In this document: positions 4,843 through 17,579 of the stretch, piece by piece
Layout: each line of letters starts with the position of its first letter
Numbering within the stretch: the first letter of the stretch is position 1
IMG/VR virus record: IMGVR_UViG_3300032893_000292
Span: 1 to 22,030 of that record
Origin: a virus
Strand: one strand, 5' to 3'
Length of the DNA stretch: 22,030 bases
Translations under genes and position numbers: made by a program
The notes under the pieces: generated by a model
Seen by the model: only the letters and a program-made list of their open reading frames with translations
Told to the model about the DNA's origin: nothing
The model's database searches: none

Positions 4843-5071
4843 ATGCGACCTCGATGAGGTCATTGCGTGGCGCACGTACTTGCTCGTGGATGGTGAAACC
4901 GTCGAGCTTCCCGTAACGAGAGGAGAGCTGCTTGCTGAGAAAGCTGGCAAGACAATTAAAAAAGGCCTGGGCCTCCCTCTCGATCAGAGGCCCGCGCCGC
5001 ACGGTATGTCCTGTCCCGAAGGAAGCAGTCCTGATGCGCTCGATCTTGATCGAATCTTCAAAGCCAGTTAA
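4814..5071 (+). CDS. Hypothetical protein, 85 aa
   Basis: The GTG start at 4814 follows a near-perfect ribosome site AAGGAGG (4801-4807) at 6 nt. The N-terminus is basic and helical (LKKLLRRLK), followed by a short strand-like segment AWRTYLLVDGETVELPVTRGE. No family is recognised. It lies in overlap with both neighbours, as is usual for small phage accessory genes. Confidence 0.55.
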   Translation: MLKKLLRRLKCDLDEVIAWRTYLLVDGETVELPVTRGELLAEKAGKTIKKGLGLPLDQRPAPHGMSCPEGSSPDALDLDRIFKAS

Positions 5072-5345
5072 GACGGGTCTCTTCTGGACGATCGCTTGGT
5101 GCGCAGCGATGGCACTTCTTGGCGCCTGCTGCACGCTCGACTTCGATCAGTGCGAGGTCTACACGATCGGGACCGATGAGCGGAGTTTGTGCGAGAGCAA
5201 GGCGCTGAGCGAGAACATCGCGTGCCGCGCCAAGTGGGACCGTTGGCTCTCACTCGACTTCACGGACGCGAACCATGCCGCAGCTCGCTGCCAAGCGGGG
5301 GTCGGCACATGCCAGGATCCGTCCGGAGCATCCAGTCGACCGTAG
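5034..5345 (+). CDS. Small membrane protein or lipoprotein, 103 aa
   Basis: ATG at 5034 lies 8-10 nt after AAGGAAG. A hydrophobic stretch (about residues 15-32, GLFWTIAWCAAMALLGAC) follows a positively charged start, and LLGAC resembles a lipobox, so it may be an exported lipoprotein or a single-pass membrane protein. The exposed part has cysteines (DFDQCEVY, SLCESK, IACRAK, AARCQAGVGTC) that could pair outside the cytoplasm. Its last 86 bp overlap the end of a reverse-strand gene tail to tail. An outer spanin-like role is possible but not supported by other lysis genes nearby. Confidence 0.45.
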   Translation: MRSILIESSKPVKTGLFWTIAWCAAMALLGACCTLDFDQCEVYTIGTDERSLCESKALSENIACRAKWDRWLSLDFTDANHAAARCQAGVGTCQDPSGASSRP

Positions 5346-5472
5346 CCTGCCACCGCGTGTCGCTTCGCCGTTGGCCCACGAAATAGCCCAGCATGAACAT
5401 CCCAGCTGCAACCATGGCAATCGTGAAGAACGCAACCACGTCGTCGATAGGGCTCCAGGGAGGCCTTCTCAT
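5260..5472 (-). CDS. Small single-pass membrane protein (reverse cassette), 70 aa
   Basis: This is the last gene of the reverse-strand cassette. ATG at 5472 overlaps the upstream stop as ATGA, which indicates coupled translation and is why it was chosen over ATG 5550. One membrane helix is clear (about residues 11-33, DVVAFFTIAMVAAGMFMLGYF), followed by a basic stop-transfer VGQRR and a polar tail of about 35 residues. Function is unknown. Its 3' end overlaps the end of the + strand gene at 5034-5345 by 86 bp. Confidence 0.55.
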   Translation of the reverse strand: MRRPPWSPIDDVVAFFTIAMVAAGMFMLGYFVGQRRSDTRWQATVDWMLRTDPGMCRPPLGSELRHGSRP

Positions 5473-5780
5473 AGGAAGCCCCAGGCTGAGAGCTGCTGTT
5501 CGAGCAGCTTCGAGTCGGTCTCCCGCGAGAGCCAAAAGCCAGCGACCCATCGCAGCGACTCGACTCGCACGAAAGCACGCATGGGGTTCTTCTCCGTTCT
5601 CATGGCGACCGCGATCTCGCAGTAGAGCGTCTTGTCGCGCAGCTCGAAGCCGGACACGCTCCCGCGCAAAGCATCGCTAGCTTCGCCGAAGCGGAACAAA
5701 TCTCCGATGCGCGGGATGACACACATAGCGCGATTTCGCCAGGGCAGCAGAATGGCTACCTCCCAAAAGAGCGCCGACAT
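5469..5780 (-). CDS. Hypothetical protein of the reverse cassette, 103 aa
   Basis: This reverse gene encodes a mixed alpha/beta protein with regular strand-like segments (VIPRIGDLFRF, TLYCEIAVAM, MRAFVRVESLRWVAGFWL). Amino acid composition is ordinary for a real protein, unlike the arginine-rich antisense frames nearby. A GAGG lies only 3 nt before ATG 5780, so translation may be weak or the true start may be nearby (M19 at 5726 lacks a ribosome site). It is followed by the membrane-protein gene with a 4-bp overlap. Its transcript probably starts at the element at 5857-5886. No family is recognised. Confidence 0.55.
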   Translation of the reverse strand: MSALFWEVAILLPWRNRAMCVIPRIGDLFRFGEASDALRGSVSGFELRDKTLYCEIAVAMRTEKNPMRAFVRVESLRWVAGFWLSRETDSKLLEQQLSAWGFL

Positions 5781-5856
5781 GTACCTCGGGCATCGTGAGA
5801 AATCAAAGACTTTAATACTTTCTATAATAAAATCAGAGGTATATTTTGGTATGATT

Positions 5857-5886
5857 TAGTATACCGGCAGTGATATACCGCCAGTA
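5857..5886 (-). promoter_or_regulatory. Twin promoter/operator element P1 (reverse cassette)
   Basis: Read on the minus strand, this 30-bp element has TACTGG, 17 bp, then TATACT (plus-strand 5858-5863) as a good -10 box, and it contains two CGGTATA copies 14 bp apart. It matches the element at 6135-6164 at 24 of 30 positions. It lies just downstream of the 78-residue reverse gene and about 77 bp upstream of the next reverse gene; the leader between (5781-5856) is strikingly AT-rich. The first hexamer is not a consensus -35, which suggests control by an activator or repressor that binds the repeats. Confidence 0.55.
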
Positions 5887-5892
5887 GAACGT

Positions 5893-6129
5893 CTACAGAC
5901 GCAGATCCCGCGGCCGCGTCTCTCGACACACGAACCACTGCCTCGAGCGGTAGCGCTCAAACTGAGGGAGCTTCGAACACCGGGTGCACAGATGCCACTT
6001 CCCGCGACGGCCGACGATCACGGTCGCGATCCGGCGACAACCGAGGCGGACCCGCGCTCCGTTCCGAGCGATGACGATCTTCTCGGCCCGGCTGAGGACC
6101 GGATCCCACTCGCAGCGCTTTCTAGCCAT
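5893..6129 (-). CDS. Basic cysteine-rich small protein, possible DNA-binding regulator, 78 aa
   Basis: ATG at 6129 begins MARKRCEWDPVLSRAEKI. The protein is very basic (about 18 arginines) with cysteines at 6, 31, 48, 51 and 68; LCTRC (47-51) and FVC (66-68) look like the halves of a zinc knuckle. An in-frame upstream extension would translate the operator repeats and is rejected. A -10 box (TATAAT) ends 7 bp before the ATG, so the mRNA would start at or next to the start codon. A similar promoter lies just after its stop. That setting suggests a small regulator that binds both elements, but no family was recognised and this role is inference. Confidence 0.55.
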   Translation of the reverse strand: MARKRCEWDPVLSRAEKIVIARNGARVRLGCRRIATVIVGRRGKWHLCTRCSKLPQFERYRSRQWFVCRETRPRDLRL

Positions 6130-6134
6130 GGGGC

Positions 6135-6164
6135 CATTATACCGCCCGTAATATACCGCCAGTG
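6135..6164 (-). promoter_or_regulatory. Twin promoter/operator element P2 with TATAAT, probably leaderless
   Basis: On the minus strand this element has CACTGG, 17 bp, then a perfect TATAAT (plus-strand 6136-6141), with two CGGTATA copies 14 bp apart. It repeats 5857-5886 at 24 of 30 positions. Transcription from this -10 would begin around 6129, the first base of the ATG of the 78-residue gene, leaving no ribosome site. Leaderless messages are known for some phage repressors, such as lambda cI from PRM. Confidence 0.55.
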
Positions 6165-6367
6165 AACTGGGCAAAATGTTCCACGTGAAGCTCTAGCGCC
6201 CCGATAGATGCGACATGAAAGCCCGAACCCTTGCACCGCTTGGCTTTGGATTTTAAACTGAGAAAAAAAGCTTGCAGCCTTCTCGCCTCCACATGTACAC
6301 GTGTAGACAGACATAACGCGCACTTGCGACACGATCCGTAGCAAAAATGTTACAGAAGGGGACATAA
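6165..6367. other. Divergent intergenic region between reverse cassette and forward operon
   Basis: This 203-bp stretch separates the reverse cassette from the next forward genes and holds no convincing gene. It contains a possible + strand promoter (listed separately), an A7 run at 6263-6269, the 10-bp palindrome TACACGTGTA (6295-6304), and an AAGGGG ribosome site (6357-6362) for the gene at 6368. Confidence 0.55.
6231..6259 (+). promoter_or_regulatory. Possible promoter for the forward accessory/late genes
   Basis: TTGCAC (6231-6236) and TAAACT (6254-6259) are exactly 17 bp apart, with 3 and 4 of 6 consensus matches. It lies in the only untranscribed gap ahead of the long forward gene run, where a promoter is expected. 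The boxes are poor, so phage-specific activation or another site is equally possible. Confidence 0.25.
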
Positions 6368-6598
6368 ATGCCCGAAACGATTGACTTGCACAAAAATGTT
6401 GCGCAACCGACACGCATGGACGAGGCCGAGCTGAACAAAGAGTGCGCCGCGGCCGCCGCATACTTCCAAGCCAAGTTTCTCTCCGGCGCTCCGGACGACA
6501 GCAAAGCGCTTGGCATGAACTGCTTTGCCAAAGGTTTCGGCGCTGGCATCCGATGGATGGAGAGACGGCTCGCGGACGCGAAAGGAGCTCCGACATGA
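6368..6598 (+). CDS. Hypothetical protein, 76 aa
   Basis: ATG at 6368 follows AAGGGG at about 5 nt. The protein is alanine-rich and helical (ELNKECAAAAAYFQAKFL), ending in an RWMERRLADAKGA helix. No family is recognised. It is the first gene of the long forward run and overlaps the next gene by ATGA at 6595-6598. Confidence 0.6.
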   Translation: MPETIDLHKNVAQPTRMDEAELNKECAAAAAYFQAKFLSGAPDDSKALGMNCFAKGFGAGIRWMERRLADAKGAPT

Positions 6599-6960
6599 CA
6601 GACATCAACGGCGCCGGCGGCAAGACCATCGCCTGGCAAGCCCTGATCGAAGGCGAGTTCCTCCAGTTCATCGGAGCCATGCAGTTCAACTGCAACCACG
6701 TACTCGAAGAATGCAAAAAGCACGTTCCTGATGTGAAGGACAAAGCGTGCCAGATCTTTGTCACAAATCTTTTTGTCGAATCACTCATCTCGGTTTGCCT
6801 CGAACGCATCACATCGCTTCTGAGAACCGTAAGCCCAGCTCTCGAAGCCGATATAATTGTGGCAATAAAGCAGAAGTTTGAACAACTTAGGCAGGACAAC
6901 CCGCAGACACTCGGAGCCACCGGTCCACAGCTTGTCCAGCCTTCCGCCCCAGGAAATTAA
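6595..6960 (+). CDS. Hypothetical helical protein, 121 aa
   Basis: ATG at 6595 overlaps the previous stop and has AAGGAG 8 nt upstream. The protein is soluble and mainly helical, with hydrophobic heptad-like spacing around ACQIFVTNLFVESLISVCLE and ALEADIIVAIKQKFEQL, followed by a short P/Q-rich tail. No family is recognised. It precedes the DUF5681 gene, so a role near packaging is possible but only by position. Confidence 0.55.
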   Translation: MTDINGAGGKTIAWQALIEGEFLQFIGAMQFNCNHVLEECKKHVPDVKDKACQIFVTNLFVESLISVCLERITSLLRTVSPALEADIIVAIKQKFEQLRQDNPQTLGATGPQLVQPSAPGN

Positions 6961-6981
6961 CAGGGCCAATGCAGGGCGATC

Positions 6982-7425
6982 ATGAGTGACGATGGCTACA
7001 AGGTAGACAACAAGCACCCGCCACGGGAGCACCAGTTCAAACCCGGTCAGAGCGGCAATCCTGAGGGGGCACGCCGCCACAACCAGGAGCTGAAGCGCTT
7101 ACGGCGGCTCTCAGCGGAAGAAGTGTCTGCGATCGCCACGATGATCCTGGAGCACGACCGGAAGGCGCTTGTCGAGCTCACCAAGAAGACGGACGCCAGC
7201 ATCCTGCAGCTGTGGTTCGCCAAGATCGCGGCGAAGGCGATCGACAAGGGAGACGCGACGGCGCTGTCGATCATACTCGATCGCGTCTGCGGGAAGGCAC
7301 CGAGCAAGGTGGAGATCAGCGGGAAGGATGGCGGCCCGATCACGACATCCGAGATGACACACGAGGAGCGGCTGGCAGAGATCGAGCGGCTGCGGAAACT
7401 GCGGGAGTCGTGTGGAGACGATTGA
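6982..7425 (+). CDS. DUF5681 domain protein, possible small terminase-like protein
   Basis: This 147-residue protein has the DUF5681 signature FKPGQSGNPEGAR at residues 19-31, followed by helices (SAEEVSAIATMILEHDRKALVEL and KDGGPITTSEMTHEERLAEIERLRKL). Proteins with this domain are common in phages and prophages near terminase genes and some are annotated as packaging or small terminase proteins. Here the large terminase is about 4.6 kb downstream, with no other small-terminase candidate in the window. The ATG at 6982 has a weak AGGG ribosome site. DNA-binding function is plausible from its basic N-terminus but unproven. Confidence 0.65.
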   Translation: MSDDGYKVDNKHPPREHQFKPGQSGNPEGARRHNQELKRLRRLSAEEVSAIATMILEHDRKALVELTKKTDASILQLWFAKIAAKAIDKGDATALSIILDRVCGKAPSKVEISGKDGGPITTSEMTHEERLAEIERLRKLRESCGDD

Positions 7426-8147: not shown

Positions 8148-8534
8148 ATGAATCTGGGCGCACTAATCCGCCAACTGGAAACGGCTCCGCAAGAGCATGA
8201 AGTGATGTTCAACTTCGGATATTTTAAGCCGCAAGAGTTGCGCAGCTATCGCGGATATTATGAACACCTTGCATTGGGATACACAGATCAAGAGTCATAT
8301 AAAATCACGGTGCGAGAGCTCCTGAGCATCCTCAAATCTGCCATCGGCAACGTGTTCGAAGGTTATAAAGGTGGAGCATACGCTGCAACTGCCGACCGAC
8401 TCGTGTACGTCTCAAACTGGGGAGATGTAACTGGCACAACCATTCTGTCGGTGCAAAGTGATGAGGTGCGGACGTATTTGATGACCGGAAACGAAGACGT
8501 CGATGATGCAAGCGAGGGTACGGACAATGGCTGA
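8148..8534 (+). CDS. Conserved phage protein with SYRGYYEHLALGY motif
   Basis: This 128-residue protein belongs to a small conserved phage family with an N-terminal LGALIRQLETAPQEHEVMFNFGYFKPQELRSYRGYYEHLALGY-type arrangement; here residues 1-45 show its hallmark FDFG-like and SYRGYY segments. A C-terminal beta-rich part and an acidic tail follow. ATG 8148 is preferred because GAGGGGG lies just upstream; GTG 8142 overlapping the previous stop is the alternative. The family is common in tailed phages but its function is not known to me. Confidence 0.6.
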   Translation: MNLGALIRQLETAPQEHEVMFNFGYFKPQELRSYRGYYEHLALGYTDQESYKITVRELLSILKSAIGNVFEGYKGGAYAATADRLVYVSNWGDVTGTTILSVQSDEVRTYLMTGNEDVDDASEGTDNG

Positions 8535-8787
8535 GTTAGGCAAGATCGGAGTCGATGTCAGACGTACGCCCGACTTAAACGTTTTTATGACGACGTTGGC
8601 AGCAGCGATCATCGTCGGCTCATTCCTAGGGCTGCTGTACACAAGCTGGCAACGTAAGGAGGAAGATTCGTCTTACGAAAGCGTTTGCCTCGATGCGCAC
8701 GAGTTCCTAGTGTATGACGGCAACATCGTGCAGAACGTCGATGACGATGGCGCACCAGTGCCGTGCAGCGAAGAGACCAACAAGTGA
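8527..8787 (+). CDS. Small single-pass membrane protein, 86 aa
   Basis: ATG at 8527 follows GAGG (8514-8517). One membrane helix is clear (about residues 20-41, VFMTTLAAAIIVGSFLGLLY), followed by a charged, acidic region with two cysteines (ESVCLDAHEF and APVPCSEE). The gene overlaps the previous stop by 8 bp and the next start as GTGA. It could be an inner-membrane accessory or lysis-related protein; nothing decides this. Confidence 0.6.
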   Translation: MAELGKIGVDVRRTPDLNVFMTTLAAAIIVGSFLGLLYTSWQRKEEDSSYESVCLDAHEFLVYDGNIVQNVDDDGAPVPCSEETNK

Positions 8788-8960
8788 GAGACGCCAACCT
8801 GATCATCAGCGAAGCGGAAGTGCGCGAAGCACTCGCAGCTCTCATCGAGAGCAAGACGCATTTGAACAAAGTGCAAATCGATCTGATGAAGAGGGCTGAG
8901 AACGGAGCGCCAATCGAATGCGACTTCCGCGTGTTCTTTTCTTTTCAAGAGAAGGAGTGA
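8784..8960 (+). CDS. Hypothetical protein, 58 aa
   Basis: GTG at 8784 overlaps the upstream stop as GTGA. The protein is helical (ANLIISEAEVREALAALIESK, then VQIDLMKRAENG) with an aromatic end FRVFFSFQEKE. No family is recognised. The ribosome site is weak, so translation probably depends on coupling. Confidence 0.45.
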   Translation: MRDANLIISEAEVREALAALIESKTHLNKVQIDLMKRAENGAPIECDFRVFFSFQEKE

Positions 8961-8964
8961 TGCA

Positions 8965-9141
8965 GTGAATCCAGACACAGGAAAGCTCTACAAGCCAGAG
9001 CAATTCGAAAAGCTGCCGCAGACTGAGCAGGAGAAATGCGTTGAACTCACGGAATCCGAGTACGATGCCATGCGCAAAGTGAACCGTCACGAACGGCGTG
9101 CCGCGCTGGCAAAGATGAGACGAGAAGCGAAGAAGCGATGA
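8965..9141 (+). CDS. Hypothetical basic protein, 58 aa
   Basis: GTG at 8965 lies 7 nt after AAGGAG (8952-8957), and the stop at 9139-9141 overlaps the next start as ATGA. The sequence starts MNPDTGKLYKPEQFEKLP and ends in a strongly basic helix RKVNRHERRAALAKMRREAKKR. The basic tail suggests nucleic-acid binding. No family is recognised. Confidence 0.55.
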   Translation: MNPDTGKLYKPEQFEKLPQTEQEKCVELTESEYDAMRKVNRHERRAALAKMRREAKKR

Positions 9142-9392: not shown

Positions 9393-9657
9393 TGACGAAG
9401 AATTGATTGAACTCGCGCATCGACGGCGCGATGCAAATGACCCAGATGTCACCGTGTCTGGCGATTGTGCTGGCGAGATGGCTCGCGAACTTCTACTTCA
9501 GCGCCAACTGGAAGCGGCGGTGCGCGATTGTGAACCGTACTACCGTTATATGGATGATGGTAGCCCTAGGGGTCCAGAACCAATGGTATTGATTGAAGCT
9601 CTCGCCAAACTCGACTCCCTCCGCGAATGCGCTAGCAGCGAGAGATCGGATGACTGA
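9379..9657 (+). CDS. Hypothetical acidic helical protein, 92 aa
   Basis: ATG 9379 has AGGAAGG about 6 nt upstream and overlaps the previous gene by 14 bp. Residues alternate helical segments rich in D, E and R (SDEELIELAHRRRDANDPDV, GEMARELLLQRQLEAAVRDCEP) with a short Y-rich loop. The end, LIEALAKLDSLRE, resembles the C-terminal helices of the later genes at 9898 and 10203. No family is recognised. Confidence 0.5.
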   Translation: MARFSDEELIELAHRRRDANDPDVTVSGDCAGEMARELLLQRQLEAAVRDCEPYYRYMDDGSPRGPEPMVLIEALAKLDSLRECASSERSDD

Positions 9658-9862
9658 AGTCAATTGCACCACATGTAACGACAGACGAGCGGCTGCTTGT
9701 GATTGTGTCGGCAATGCTTTCAATCCTGGGTGCATGGATGGAGATGTGTGCGGCAACTGCGGAGGTACCGGCATCTACGGCTGTCCAGATTGCTCGTCGC
9801 ACATTTCTACTGATGAGCTGATAAGCGCCTTTAACGCGAGGGAAAGGCGCGGCTTCCAGTGA
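9650..9862 (+). CDS. DnaJ-type zinc-finger protein, 70 aa
   Basis: ATG at 9650 overlaps the upstream stop by 8 bp. The protein contains nine cysteines; C34-G-N-C37-G-G-T-G41 exactly fits the DnaJ CxxCxGxG zinc motif, followed by C45-P-D-C48, with C6/C9 and C17/C19 pairs earlier. This indicates two zinc sites of the DnaJ cysteine-rich type without a J domain. Such proteins may act as zinc-dependent chaperone-like or nucleic-acid-binding factors in phages. Confidence 0.6.
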   Translation: MTEVNCTTCNDRRAAACDCVGNAFNPGCMDGDVCGNCGGTGIYGCPDCSSHISTDELISAFNARERRGFQ

Positions 9863-9897
9863 ATGAGCATCCAAGATGCTATTGCAGGAAAACGTTG

Positions 9898-10206
9898 ATG
9901 GAACAACTTAAGCCATGTCCGTTCTGTGGCGCATCTCCAACGCAGCCTGAGATGCCTGATTGGGATGTTCATTGCGACAATTGCGGTTGTTTCTATTTGG
10001 TCCAGAGTGGCGAAGATGCGGTTAAATTGTGGAACACACGCTCGATCGATGCCGAAGTCGGGGCGCTTCGGAAAGTCGTCTCATGCGCGAGGCAGGCCAA
10101 TGACAATTGGAACGAGTTCGAGGCAGAGGGCGGTATGGCTGAGTGCATGCATTATTTAGACAAAGCGATCGCCGAGCTCGATCAGCTGCTGCAGGTGAGA
10201 ACATGA
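9898..10206 (+). CDS. Lar-like restriction alleviation zinc protein, 102 aa
   Basis: The N-terminus MEQLKPCPFCGASP, with a second pair HCDNCG (C26, C29) and AVKLWNTR (41-48), matches the Lar family (PF14354), founded on the Rac-prophage protein that reduces EcoK restriction. ATG 9898 was chosen because family members start just before LKPCPFCG; a GTG at 9859 in the previous stop would add 13 residues. The C-terminus carries an extra helical module (DAEVGALRKV to AIAELDQLL) shared with the next gene. Many Lar-like proteins have not been shown to alleviate restriction, so that role is tentative here. Confidence 0.68.
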   Translation: MEQLKPCPFCGASPTQPEMPDWDVHCDNCGCFYLVQSGEDAVKLWNTRSIDAEVGALRKVVSCARQANDNWNEFEAEGGMAECMHYLDKAIAELDQLLQVRT

Positions 10207-10737: not shown

Positions 10738-10820
10738 TGCAGATCTACATCAAGATCGCAGTCGTGAGCTTCGTATTTGCAGTCATGTGGGCTGCGATCG
10801 TGGGGTTGTCGCGTGGCTAG
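10737..10820 (+). CDS. 27-aa membrane micropeptide
   Basis: ATG 10737 overlaps the previous stop (TGATG), with GGGAG about 9 nt upstream. The sequence MQIYIKIAVVSFVFAVMWAA, ending IVGLSRG, is almost one complete membrane helix. The stop at 10818-10820 overlaps the next gene by 8 bp. At 27 residues it is easily missed; coupling on both sides is the main support. Confidence 0.45.
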   Translation: MQIYIKIAVVSFVFAVMWAAIVGLSRG

Positions 10821-11724
10821 GCACTATCTGATCTCGATCAGCGGCGGCAAGGATTCGACAGCGCTGTGGCTGCACATGAAGTACGACCTCGGCCTCGAGA
10901 ACCTGATCCCTGTCTTCGCAGACACGGGCTGGGAACATCCGCTCACCTACGAGTATCTCCACTATTTAGAGACGAAGCTCGGCAAGCTGCACCGCGTGAA
11001 GTCGGATCTCGATTTCGTTGGCCTAGCCGTCAAGAAGCAGCGCTTTCCGTCTGCGCGAGCTCGCTTCTGCACAGAGCATCTGAAGCTGAAGCCATGCCGC
11101 GACTTCATCGAGTCGCTAGGTCTCGACGACCTCGTGATCTGCTCCGGCGTGCGCCATGAGGAGAGCAAGTCGCGCTCAAAGATGGCAGAGCGTGTCGACT
11201 GCGACGACTACTACAAGCGTCCGCAGTGGCGTCCGATCATCACGTGGACCTGGCAGCAGGTCTTCGCGATCCACGACAAGTACAGCATCGAGCCTAATCC
11301 GCTCTACAAGCACGGCATGGGGCGCGTCGGCTGCATGCCATGCATCATGGCGAACAACCGAGAACTCAAGGCCATCGCGGAGCGCTTCCCCGAGGTCTTC
11401 GACAAAGTGGCGGAAGCTGAGCAGCGCGTCAGCGCGTCAGCCAAGCGAGGCTGCGCATCATTCTGGACAGCTGGCGACATCCCTGAGCGCTTCTGCTCCA
11501 AGAAGTGGGTGCAGATCATCAAGGGCGGCCGCGACAAGAAGACTGGTCGGTTCCGATTGCCCTACGCTGTCGAGCACCCCATCCCGACTCCCGAAGACGT
11601 GCGCCGGTATGTGACAATGGACAAGGAAGAGAAGCAGGTCGGCCACAAGATGCCACTGCTCTTTGAGGAACCGCAGAACGAAGACCTTGGCGTATGCTCC
11701 AGCATCTACGGGCTCTGCGAATGA
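10813..11724 (+). CDS. PAPS-reductase-like PP-loop protein
   Basis: This 303-residue protein has the N-type ATP pyrophosphatase PP-loop SISGGKDST (8-16), a FADTGWEHP segment (35-43), RARFCTEHLKLKP (82-94, with C86), SGVRHEESKSRSKM (111-124) and GCMPCIMANNREL (173-185, with C174 and C177). This is the pattern of phage-encoded 'phosphoadenosine phosphosulfate reductase family' proteins. True PAPS reductases reduce activated sulfate, whereas DndC-like relatives support DNA sulfur modification. The CxxC here may hold iron-sulfur or zinc. GTG at 10813 overlaps the micropeptide stop. The substrate is unknown. Confidence 0.8.
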   Translation: MARHYLISISGGKDSTALWLHMKYDLGLENLIPVFADTGWEHPLTYEYLHYLETKLGKLHRVKSDLDFVGLAVKKQRFPSARARFCTEHLKLKPCRDFIESLGLDDLVICSGVRHEESKSRSKMAERVDCDDYYKRPQWRPIITWTWQQVFAIHDKYSIEPNPLYKHGMGRVGCMPCIMANNRELKAIAERFPEVFDKVAEAEQRVSASAKRGCASFWTAGDIPERFCSKKWVQIIKGGRDKKTGRFRLPYAVEHPIPTPEDVRRYVTMDKEEKQVGHKMPLLFEEPQNEDLGVCSSIYGLCE

Positions 11725-14542: not shown

Positions 14543-16395
14543 CACACGCTGCCGTCGTAGGCCTGCTGAACAATGTCGTCACAAGCTACGATCAAACGAA
14601 GACGACCAAAGTGGGACGCATCCAGTCTCGCACGATCAACAGCAACGCGTGTTTAGGTCCGAGCCCGATCTTAGTGGCCGACACGCAGGACGATACTGGT
14701 GCGGCTCTCACGGGAGTCATCGGAGTCGGCAGTAGTGGCAATCGGTTCATCGTCGCGCTGCCAGTGGCCGCGAACGTGCTTCAACTGGCCCTGTACAGCT
14801 TCGACATCACGGGAGTCAATCCGCCGACGTGGATCGGGAGCGTAAAGGTTGGCCTGCAAGCGAACGCTGGTACTTACACAATCAAGGCTCTGAAGCTCGA
14901 TGACTCGAATACTTCATCGATGACGATCGTGATCGGGGGCACCAAGACGTCGACATTGACCGATGGCGGTGTGTACGTCGTCCATGGTGTTCCGCTCTCT
15001 GACTTCGTGCAAGTTTCCATTCCGACGTATCCACTCGCGAGCAACACTGGCGGCTTGACCAAAGTCGCTTATCAGTACGTGGATGTCGTCGGCGCGAACA
15101 CCATCACGACGCTCGATGGCATCGCGATCGATACGACGAATCAGATACTCTACGTCGGTAGTGGTGCGGCAGCTTCGTTCAAGATTTATAAATTCAGCTA
15201 CACCAGTCCACCAGCAGCAGCGACGTCGGGTGCTTCGAGTAGTAATTTCACGTTCGCCACAGGGATCATTGCTGGTCTTGTCGGGACGATTCAGAACGTC
15301 AACGCTCTTAAGTACGTTACGCCAGGCCACAGTGCGAACTCCGGATCGCCTTGTGTGTTCTTCGCGACTAACTCGAACCTGTATCTTGTGAAAACGTCGG
15401 ACATCACGAACGGCGTCACGGCTCCTGCAAGTCTTATAACCGTGGACAACAACGGCCCTTCGGCATTGATGACCAACACAGGCGCGTTGACCACGTGGGA
15501 TACAGCTCTCGATCGCGCAATCATACAAAACACGCAGGGTTGCATTTGCATAAAGTCGTTTGTCAACACAGATCCGAACGGTTTCAACTTCAGCCACGAT
15601 ACTTGCGAGAAGTTCGAAGCGCTCTCTGGCGCTGGTGGCGGACCATACATGTTCGGTTCGCAGGGCGGATTCGGAGCATTCGTAGCGCACCAAGGATGGC
15701 TGCTCGGAAGCGGTCAGACATCTGGGCAGCGCGTCGTCGTGGCAATGGATCTGTATTCGGACGCTCTTTACAAGAACAGCTACCTGATCACGCCAGTGAT
15801 GAACATAAACGGCGGAACGCCATTCTACCTAGCGCTCCTCCGCGAATACGGCTCGATGAGCACGATGCCGATGGTCCAGTACCGGACCAGCAATTTCTCG
15901 CTAGCGCCAGGAGCTGGCGGCTTTGAAGCAAGTTGGACAACACCGCCAGCAAACCAATCATTGATAGCCGCCGCCGGAGCGACGCAGATCCAATTCCGAC
16001 TTCTATTCCCGATGTTCTTAACACAAGTGCCACCGCAGCTCAGCGAAGCCTATCTCGTCTACATGGATCCGCAGGAGAACTCCGACTACTGGGCATGGGA
16101 CAACAACCACTCGACGCCCGGCGGAACGCCAGCTCGCTTCATCTGGCGACTCATGAGGGCCTATCCGAGCGGCACTGTGCCGACGACCGCGACAGCGCGG
16201 GTCTATGACACATCGCAGAATCTGCTGCTCACGTTGTCGATCGGTGGCACACCGAGCAACGTCACGTATTCGACGGACAATGGCTCGACGTGGAACGCAT
16301 TGGGGACCGTACCGAACACAGTCGGGACCCTCATCCGCTTCACTCCGAACTCGCCACCTGGCGTGGATGTGATCGCAACATTGCGGGATAGCTGA
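14539..16395 (+). CDS. Large beta-rich virion protein, likely tail fibre or receptor-binding protein, 618 aa
   Basis: ATG at 14539 overlaps the hydrolase gene by ATGA. The 618-residue protein is S/T/G/N-rich and full of beta-strand alternation. A segment LDGIAIDTTNQILYVGSG (about residues 192-209) resembles the strands of NHL or beta-propeller blades. It lacks membrane segments and long coiled coils. The next gene, a fibre protein, overlaps it as TGATG. The size, composition and context make a fibre or receptor-binding protein likely, but no specific family was recognised. Confidence 0.55.
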   Translation: MTHAAVVGLLNNVVTSYDQTKTTKVGRIQSRTINSNACLGPSPILVADTQDDTGAALTGVIGVGSSGNRFIVALPVAANVLQLALYSFDITGVNPPTWIGSVKVGLQANAGTYTIKALKLDDSNTSSMTIVIGGTKTSTLTDGGVYVVHGVPLSDFVQVSIPTYPLASNTGGLTKVAYQYVDVVGANTITTLDGIAIDTTNQILYVGSGAAASFKIYKFSYTSPPAAATSGASSSNFTFATGIIAGLVGTIQNVNALKYVTPGHSANSGSPCVFFATNSNLYLVKTSDITNGVTAPASLITVDNNGPSALMTNTGALTTWDTALDRAIIQNTQGCICIKSFVNTDPNGFNFSHDTCEKFEALSGAGGGPYMFGSQGGFGAFVAHQGWLLGSGQTSGQRVVVAMDLYSDALYKNSYLITPVMNINGGTPFYLALLREYGSMSTMPMVQYRTSNFSLAPGAGGFEASWTTPPANQSLIAAAGATQIQFRLLFPMFLTQVPPQLSEAYLVYMDPQENSDYWAWDNNHSTPGGTPARFIWRLMRAYPSGTVPTTATARVYDTSQNLLLTLSIGGTPSNVTYSTDNGSTWNALGTVPNTVGTLIRFTPNSPPGVDVIATLRDS

Positions 16396-17579
16396 TGACC
16401 ATCAACGCGTACATCAATGGGCAGATCTTTGCGACAGCCTCGCAGGCGTGCATCAATGACCTGACGCCTCCGACATTCGCCGGGATCACGAGCTCTGCGG
16501 CGAACACGGATGGGAGCCTGACAGCCAACTGGTCCGCCGCTACTGACACGAGCACGCCGCTGATGTACCTGGTCTACATTGCGCTTGGCAGCGTAAGCGC
16601 AGCCACGCTCTTCCAGTCGACCAATCTCGTGAAGATCGTCCCGCAAGGGCTACTCACGACACGCGTGTTCACGCTCGCAGATCAGAACACTTATCTGGTG
16701 AACGGTCAGACGTACACGCTTGGCGTGCGGGCGCAGGATGCTGTCGGCAACATCGACTCGAACACAGCGACGTCTGTGATCGCAGCTGTGGCATCCGGAA
16801 ACCTGCCGGCTGTCTTCCAGACCATCGCGACCAATCTCGCTGCCACCGAAGCGCTGCTCGCGACAGATCACACCAACCTTGCTGCGGACATCGCGACATT
16901 CGGAGCCGACCTGTCGACTCTCGCCGGGTATCTCACTACATTCAACAGCTACCTAGGCACTTTCAATAGTGATCTCACGGCGTTGGCATCATACTTGTCG
17001 CAATTCGGGACCGATCTTGGACGCTTAGAAACTGATCTCGACCGATTCGAAGCAGACCTTGGCACACTAGAGACAGATCTCGGTACGCTTGGCGCAGACG
17101 TTTCGCAATTCCACACCGACAATGCTCAGTTCCACACCGATGCTGCGCAGTTTCACGCGGATCTCGCAACATTCGAATCCGACTTGTCAAACTTGGCGGC
17201 GGACATTGCTACGCTCGACGCAGACGTCGCGCAGTTCCATCTCGACTCTGGCCAGTTCCATACCGACCAAGCGCAGATGCACACGGACGTGGCGCAGCTC
17301 AGTACCAACGTCTCGACATTCACGGCGGACTTGGCGACTCTGGCAACAGACCTAGCCACGCTGTCATCGCTGCTCGGAACCCTCAGCACAGATGTGGCGA
17401 CATTCCACGCAGACGCTGCGATGTTCCACGCGGATGCAGCGCAGTTTCACAACGACATTCAAAGCATCACGGTCGGCCTCGAGATCGTGGATATAAGCGG
17501 GACCGTAGAAGACGAGTCGGTCTCTGCTACAGTAGACGAGAACGCAGACGTCACGGGTGACGTAGGAGAGACACCATGA
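16395..17579 (+). CDS. FN3-like plus 30-heptad coiled-coil fibre protein, 394 aa
   Basis: Residues 25-130 resemble a fibronectin type III domain (LTANWSAATDTSTPLMYLVY, then YTLGVRAQDAVGNIDSNTA). Residues 148-357 are 30 uninterrupted heptads of the form [L/F]xxDLxx, with hydrophobic residues at positions 1 and 5 (d and a in coiled-coil terms) and aspartate usually at position 4. Several heptads read FHTDxAQ, giving many histidines on the core stripe. An acidic tail follows. The whole looks like a trimeric tail-fibre shaft with an FN3 base. ATG overlaps the previous stop (TGATG) and its stop overlaps the next start. Confidence 0.72.
   Translation: MTINAYINGQIFATASQACINDLTPPTFAGITSSAANTDGSLTANWSAATDTSTPLMYLVYIALGSVSAATLFQSTNLVKIVPQGLLTTRVFTLADQNTYLVNGQTYTLGVRAQDAVGNIDSNTATSVIAAVASGNLPAVFQTIATNLAATEALLATDHTNLAADIATFGADLSTLAGYLTTFNSYLGTFNSDLTALASYLSQFGTDLGRLETDLDRFEADLGTLETDLGTLGADVSQFHTDNAQFHTDAAQFHADLATFESDLSNLAADIATLDADVAQFHLDSGQFHTDQAQMHTDVAQLSTNVSTFTADLATLATDLATLSSLLGTLSTDVATFHADAAMFHADAAQFHNDIQSITVGLEIVDISGTVEDESVSATVDENADVTGDVGETP
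16836..17465 (+). repeat. 30-copy 21-bp-period repeat encoding heptads
   Basis: The DNA coding residues 148-357 repeats with a 21-bp period without a single insertion or deletion, with shared words such as CAGTTCCACACCGA and GACCTNGC-type codons (for example CAGTTCCA at 17127-17134, with similar words in neighbouring units). The copies have diverged in codon use, so it is an old in-frame tandem expansion, not a recent one. Confidence 0.6.

Follow-up and report, generated by a model that had tools for sequence, protein, structure and literature searches.

Two copies of a predicted promoter-operator made of tandem asymmetric units at a minus-strand cassette of an uncultured phage contig

What controls a short group of genes that faces backwards in an otherwise plus-strand phage contig? 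The window analysed here is the entire IMG/VR record IMGVR_UViG_3300032893_000292 (22,030 bases; 57% G+C), in which the phage genome is probably incomplete. Its plus strand encodes, in this order, exonuclease VIII, a phrog_3657 protein, an O-like replication protein, a DnaC-like helicase loader and an endonuclease/resolvase-type protein, and further on small genes, a PAPS-reductase-like protein, the large terminase, further late genes and the portal; a minus-strand cassette at approximately 5260-6129 is the exception. Additional features of the contig comprise a protein (9859-10206) that matches the restriction alleviation protein Lar family (PF14354, E 1.2e-9) and for which an anti-restriction function is possible, a PAPS reductase domain protein (10777-11724; PF01507, E 3e-25) in the coding region upstream of the terminase, and a 394-aa ORF (16395-17579) in which heptad-like L/D/T repeats form a long repetitive tract, the source of several other direct-repeat pairs in the window. 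The cassette and its control region contain the following features.

6135..6164, minus strand: element 2, predicted operator; units 6151-6163 (ACTGGCGGTATAT) and 6137-6149 (ACGGGCGGTATAA), head-to-tail
6136..6141, minus strand: -10-like hexamer TATAAT of element 2; no consensus -35
5893..6129, minus strand: basic, Cys-containing 78-aa ORF, orphan; ATG at 6129, stop at 5893, between the elements
5857..5886, minus strand: element 1, predicted operator; units 5873-5885 (ACTGGCGGTATAT) and 5859-5871 (ACTGCCGGTATAC), head-to-tail
5858..5863, minus strand: -10-like hexamer TATACT of element 1; about 77 nt ahead of the ATG (5780) of the 103-aa ORF
5838..5843, plus strand: GGTATA beside element 1, with GGTATG nearby; opposite orientation to the element copies
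5469..5780, minus strand: 103-aa ORF, coding-like (0.197 per codon), orphan
5260..5472, minus strand: 70-aa ORF containing a hydrophobic segment; start codon overlapping the 103-aa ORF's TGA stop (ATGA); coding score neutral

Element 1 reads TACTGGCGGTATATCACTGCCGGTATACTA on the minus strand (5886-5857) and element 2 reads CACTGGCGGTATATTACGGGCGGTATAATG (6164-6135). The initial annotation, which had described two 30-bp elements in the same orientation with 24 of 30 positions identical, proved exact on recheck; the likeness ends at the element borders, the flanks are unrelated, and the longest exact run common to both is 13 bp. Each element contains two CGGTATA copies with a 14-bp period, as had also been noted, and no copy of this heptamer lies elsewhere in the window; the true conserved unit is longer, however, i.e. 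ACTGGCGGTATAT, which is exact in the upstream copy of both elements and carries two mismatches in each downstream copy, so that each element is a tandem repeat of two head-to-tail copies of an asymmetric 14-bp unit, ACTGGCGGTATATN. The upstream unit is identical between the elements at 13 of 13 positions and yet lies outside the -10, hence the conservation exceeds that of a -10. No further copies of the unit were found in the contig, where other matches carry three mismatches and are at chance level. GGTATA occurs six times in the window, four of these within the elements; the copy at 5838, one of the two outside, is a possible, weak extra half-site. The region of element 1 and the leader of the 103-aa ORF is A+T-rich (41% G+C).

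In both elements the downstream unit overlaps the -10-like hexamer. The two boxes named in the initial annotation lie on the minus strand at 5863-5858 (TATACT) and 6141-6136 (TATAAT), and the latter is the sole minus-strand TATAAT of the window. The reported lack of a consensus -35 likewise held for positions 4900-7000, where no sigma-70-type promoter with a -35 was found, and that reading was rejected on sequence; a sigma-54 promoter was also rejected, since inspection of both elements by eye found no GC at the required GG-N10-GC (-24/-12) spacing. The TATAAT of element 2 ends 6 nt ahead of the ATG (6129) of the 78-aa ORF. Transcription usually starts at about this distance, 6 nt, from a -10 hexamer, and the mRNA of this gene is therefore predicted to be leaderless. 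One element thus stands ahead of each minus-strand unit; the repeat, its overlap with the -10 and its placement are direct observations, and sequence and placement lend good support to the assignment of the elements as shared promoter/operators of two reverse-strand units.

The 78-residue ORF was found between the elements as previously described, and element 1 begins 6 nt after its stop codon. Among the six frames it has the best coding signal, although at 0.053 per codon this is weak (0.09-0.35 for reference genes). The predicted protein contains several cysteines, among them one CxxC, and was assigned to no family in Pfam (E<=1), PHROGs or PADLOC; the Pfam scan (E<=1) likewise gave no match to the Ogr/Delta zinc-finger family. 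In NCBIfam only sub-threshold matches were obtained, to the C-terminal end of Fpg and to ribosomal L37ae, and among PDB sequences there was one match, ribosomal protein eL43 (E 0.005; residues 21-66); none of these is a transcription regulator. At best, these weak similarities would fit a degenerate zinc ribbon, and they do not speak to sequence-specific DNA binding. The single-sequence structure model is beta-rich and of low confidence (pLDDT 52), and a fold search with it found nothing.

The second unit comprises the 103-aa ORF, whose coding score is like that of known genes of the window, and the 70-aa ORF, read as a membrane-protein gene; in view of the ATGA overlap, translation of the latter is probably coupled to that of the former. 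The 70-aa protein yielded sub-threshold matches of the Rz/holin type (Rz-like spanin, E 0.013), and the structure model of the 103-aa protein was worse than that of the 78-aa protein (pLDDT 52). Tail-to-tail with the 70-aa ORF (5260-5472) overlaps a plus-strand ORF (5034-5345) with a lipoprotein-like start (LLGACC). No HTH match was obtained for the 78-aa or the 103-aa protein, and the scan of proteins from the window revealed nothing recognisable as a transcription regulator, the contig being probably incomplete.

A shared operator is likely at this locus; the best reading is one of the repressor type, which would overlap both promoters predicted for a cassette of accessory or lysogeny type. 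A protein distinct from the polymerase that recognises the sequence would most simply explain why the identity reaches well beyond the upstream edge of the -10 and stops at the element borders; with the downstream unit lying over the -10, repression is the simplest effect; and since the rest of the contig has no such units, control looks local to the cassette. Promoter activity, binding and repression at the elements are what we infer from this arrangement. A DNA-binding protein would recognise ACTGGCGGTATATN, with two tandem units per promoter in the direction of transcription, and its binding over the -10 would most likely repress; the leaderless 78-aa gene and the operon of the 103-aa and membrane-protein genes would be switched together, as an accessory or lysogeny-expressed cassette in a phage with its other genes on the plus strand. 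Candidates for the regulator are the 78-aa product, a host factor, or a phage repressor encoded outside the incomplete contig. That one predicted promoter-operator is present here in two copies, with a DNA-binding protein on the asymmetric unit and joint switching of the cassette, is a proposition that we consider evenly balanced.

A coincidence of sequence or composition between two unregulated promoters would draw on the TATA part of the similarity, which is imposed by the -10, and on the finding that repeated intergenic elements are not rare: an intergenic pair matching at 24 of 30 positions occurred in about 10% of 72 sequences, mostly phage contigs, in a comparison that used a crude gene call and missed the window's own pair, probably owing to a spurious 300-aa ORF covering the elements. 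We consider coincidence very improbable nonetheless, given the fully identical upstream unit (13/13) and the count and spacing of the heptamer. CGGTATA is present four times in the window (0.52 expected), a number reached in none of 100 shuffles, and CGGTATA-N5..9-CGGTATA twice (0.00 expected); in order-3 Markov simulations, none of 300 contained any 7-mer forming period-14 pairs at two places, and equivalent two-place pairs were obtained in 2 of 60 when any period from 8 to 30 was allowed. The direct orientation of the elements and the single gene that they bracket would also suit recombination-related repeats, i.e. junctions of a movable or deletable 278-bp unit; this is highly improbable in view of the 13-bp limit on exact identity, the internally tandem structure with a -10 in each element, the position of element 2 ahead of a gene as well, and a core-site-like inverted repeat not being seen by eye.

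The main mechanistic rival to repression is activation replacing the missing -35, i.e. activator-dependent promoters, or promoters of an alternative polymerase, in which the tandem repeat is read by an activator or sigma factor and its upstream unit takes the place of the -35. Dependence on an activator, in place of repression, could account for the lack of a consensus -35, and the spacing from upstream unit to -10 is equal in both copies; it would be unusual, however, for an activator site to extend over the -10, the sigma-54 spacing is absent on inspection, and the copies ahead of plus-strand operons that a phage-wide factor would lead one to expect were not found. This alternative is, in our judgement, unlikely. 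In a special case of the repressor-type reading, the model of the initial annotation, both elements would be bound by the 78-aa protein acting as a small regulator of zinc-ribbon-like type, and the cassette would be autoregulated. Local regulators often bind their own promoters, and this gene is the first of the cassette, is bracketed by both elements, and encodes a basic protein with several cysteines including a CxxC, a faint resemblance to zinc ribbons and a beta-rich, low-confidence model; the cassette offers no better candidate. Against this stand the absence of a match to any DNA-binding regulator family, the nature of the weak matches (ribosomal proteins and a glycosylase zinc finger), and other small Cys-containing proteins in the window that lack such elements (e.g. 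9593-9862). Autoregulation by the 78-aa protein is a tentative and rather unlikely proposal; the fuller claim, that this orphan is a new type of small zinc-ribbon regulator acting on asymmetric 14-bp units that are arranged in tandem and overlap the -10, expressed leaderless and autoregulating a two-promoter cassette, is decidedly unlikely.

Relatives of the locus were searched for at the protein and DNA level. Homologues of the 78-aa protein were found neither in viral contigs, genome contigs, phages and plasmids nor in 35 phage records of terminase relatives, and homologues of the 103-aa protein neither in viral contigs nor in phages. The full element, used as a DNA pattern, had no match in viral contigs; BLAST of the 30-base element against phages gave chance-level matches only (E about 2-8), the terminase relatives contained no CGGTATA pair, and Rfam returned nothing. 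The comparison of synteny and empty sites failed because the terminase relatives share only 29-52% identity and searches with neighbour proteins (the phrog_3657 protein and a DUF5681 protein) found no relatives. A looser element pattern gave 12 matches. Eleven lie within long ORFs, nine of these apparently in the same 216-aa gene, and the twelfth is in the promoter of a repressor gene. This last locus (IMGVR_UViG_3300009830_000006, 8396-9060) contains a perfect tandem 14-bp repeat (GCGGTATAATTGCC, twice), each copy with a TATAAT, directly upstream of a repressor gene of CI/LexA type, as judged from the gene sequence; a Cro-like HTH gene runs divergently from this repressor gene. The layout at a likely regulator promoter is the same as in the window, but there is a single element and there are no homologous genes, and the likeness may be a coincidence since it was found by pattern search.

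Asymmetric operators of this general kind are known. In cluster A mycobacteriophages (L5, TipsytheTRex), operators/stoperators are asymmetric, directional and promoter-overlapping, with more than 20 single sites across the genome and a 183-residue repressor with HTH and Stoperator domains (PMC9283540, PMC1934351). The elements resemble the L5 type in their asymmetric unit of the 13-bp class, oriented with transcription and overlapping a (here predicted) promoter; they differ in that only four units are present, in tandem pairs at two promoters, in a possibly incomplete contig, and in the unrelated unit sequence. A repressor with HTH and Stoperator domains was not seen in the scan of window proteins, which covers only this part of a probably incomplete genome. 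The predicted operator also shares its asymmetry with those of P1/P7 and of Bacillus phage phi105, whose repressors act on asymmetric rather than dyad operators (named in PMC1934351). Leaderless regulator genes on the opposite strand are known from prophage immunity regions, i.e. lambda cI and PaaR2 of CP-933P (PMC8630535), and the 78-aa gene is similar in its opposite strand, an mRNA that probably starts at the AUG, and a predicted operator overlapping its promoter. In contrast, lambdoid operators are palindromes (dyads) between divergent promoters and are bound by HTH regulators; unlike the CI/Cro region, the window has tandem direct repeats, two same-strand promoters, and no HTH protein that was found.

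The suggestion in the initial annotation that the locus may be an undescribed control switch was therefore an overstatement, since asymmetric, directional phage operators overlapping promoters had been described (PMC9283540, PMC1934351). The element is a single, unreplicated sequence observation; the pattern is real, and as a means of phage control it would be of an ordinary kind. If it works as read, it would provide a compact tandem asymmetric operator for a backward-facing cassette in an uncultured phage, adjoined by an orphan candidate regulator, and would add one more to the minority of non-palindromic phage operators.
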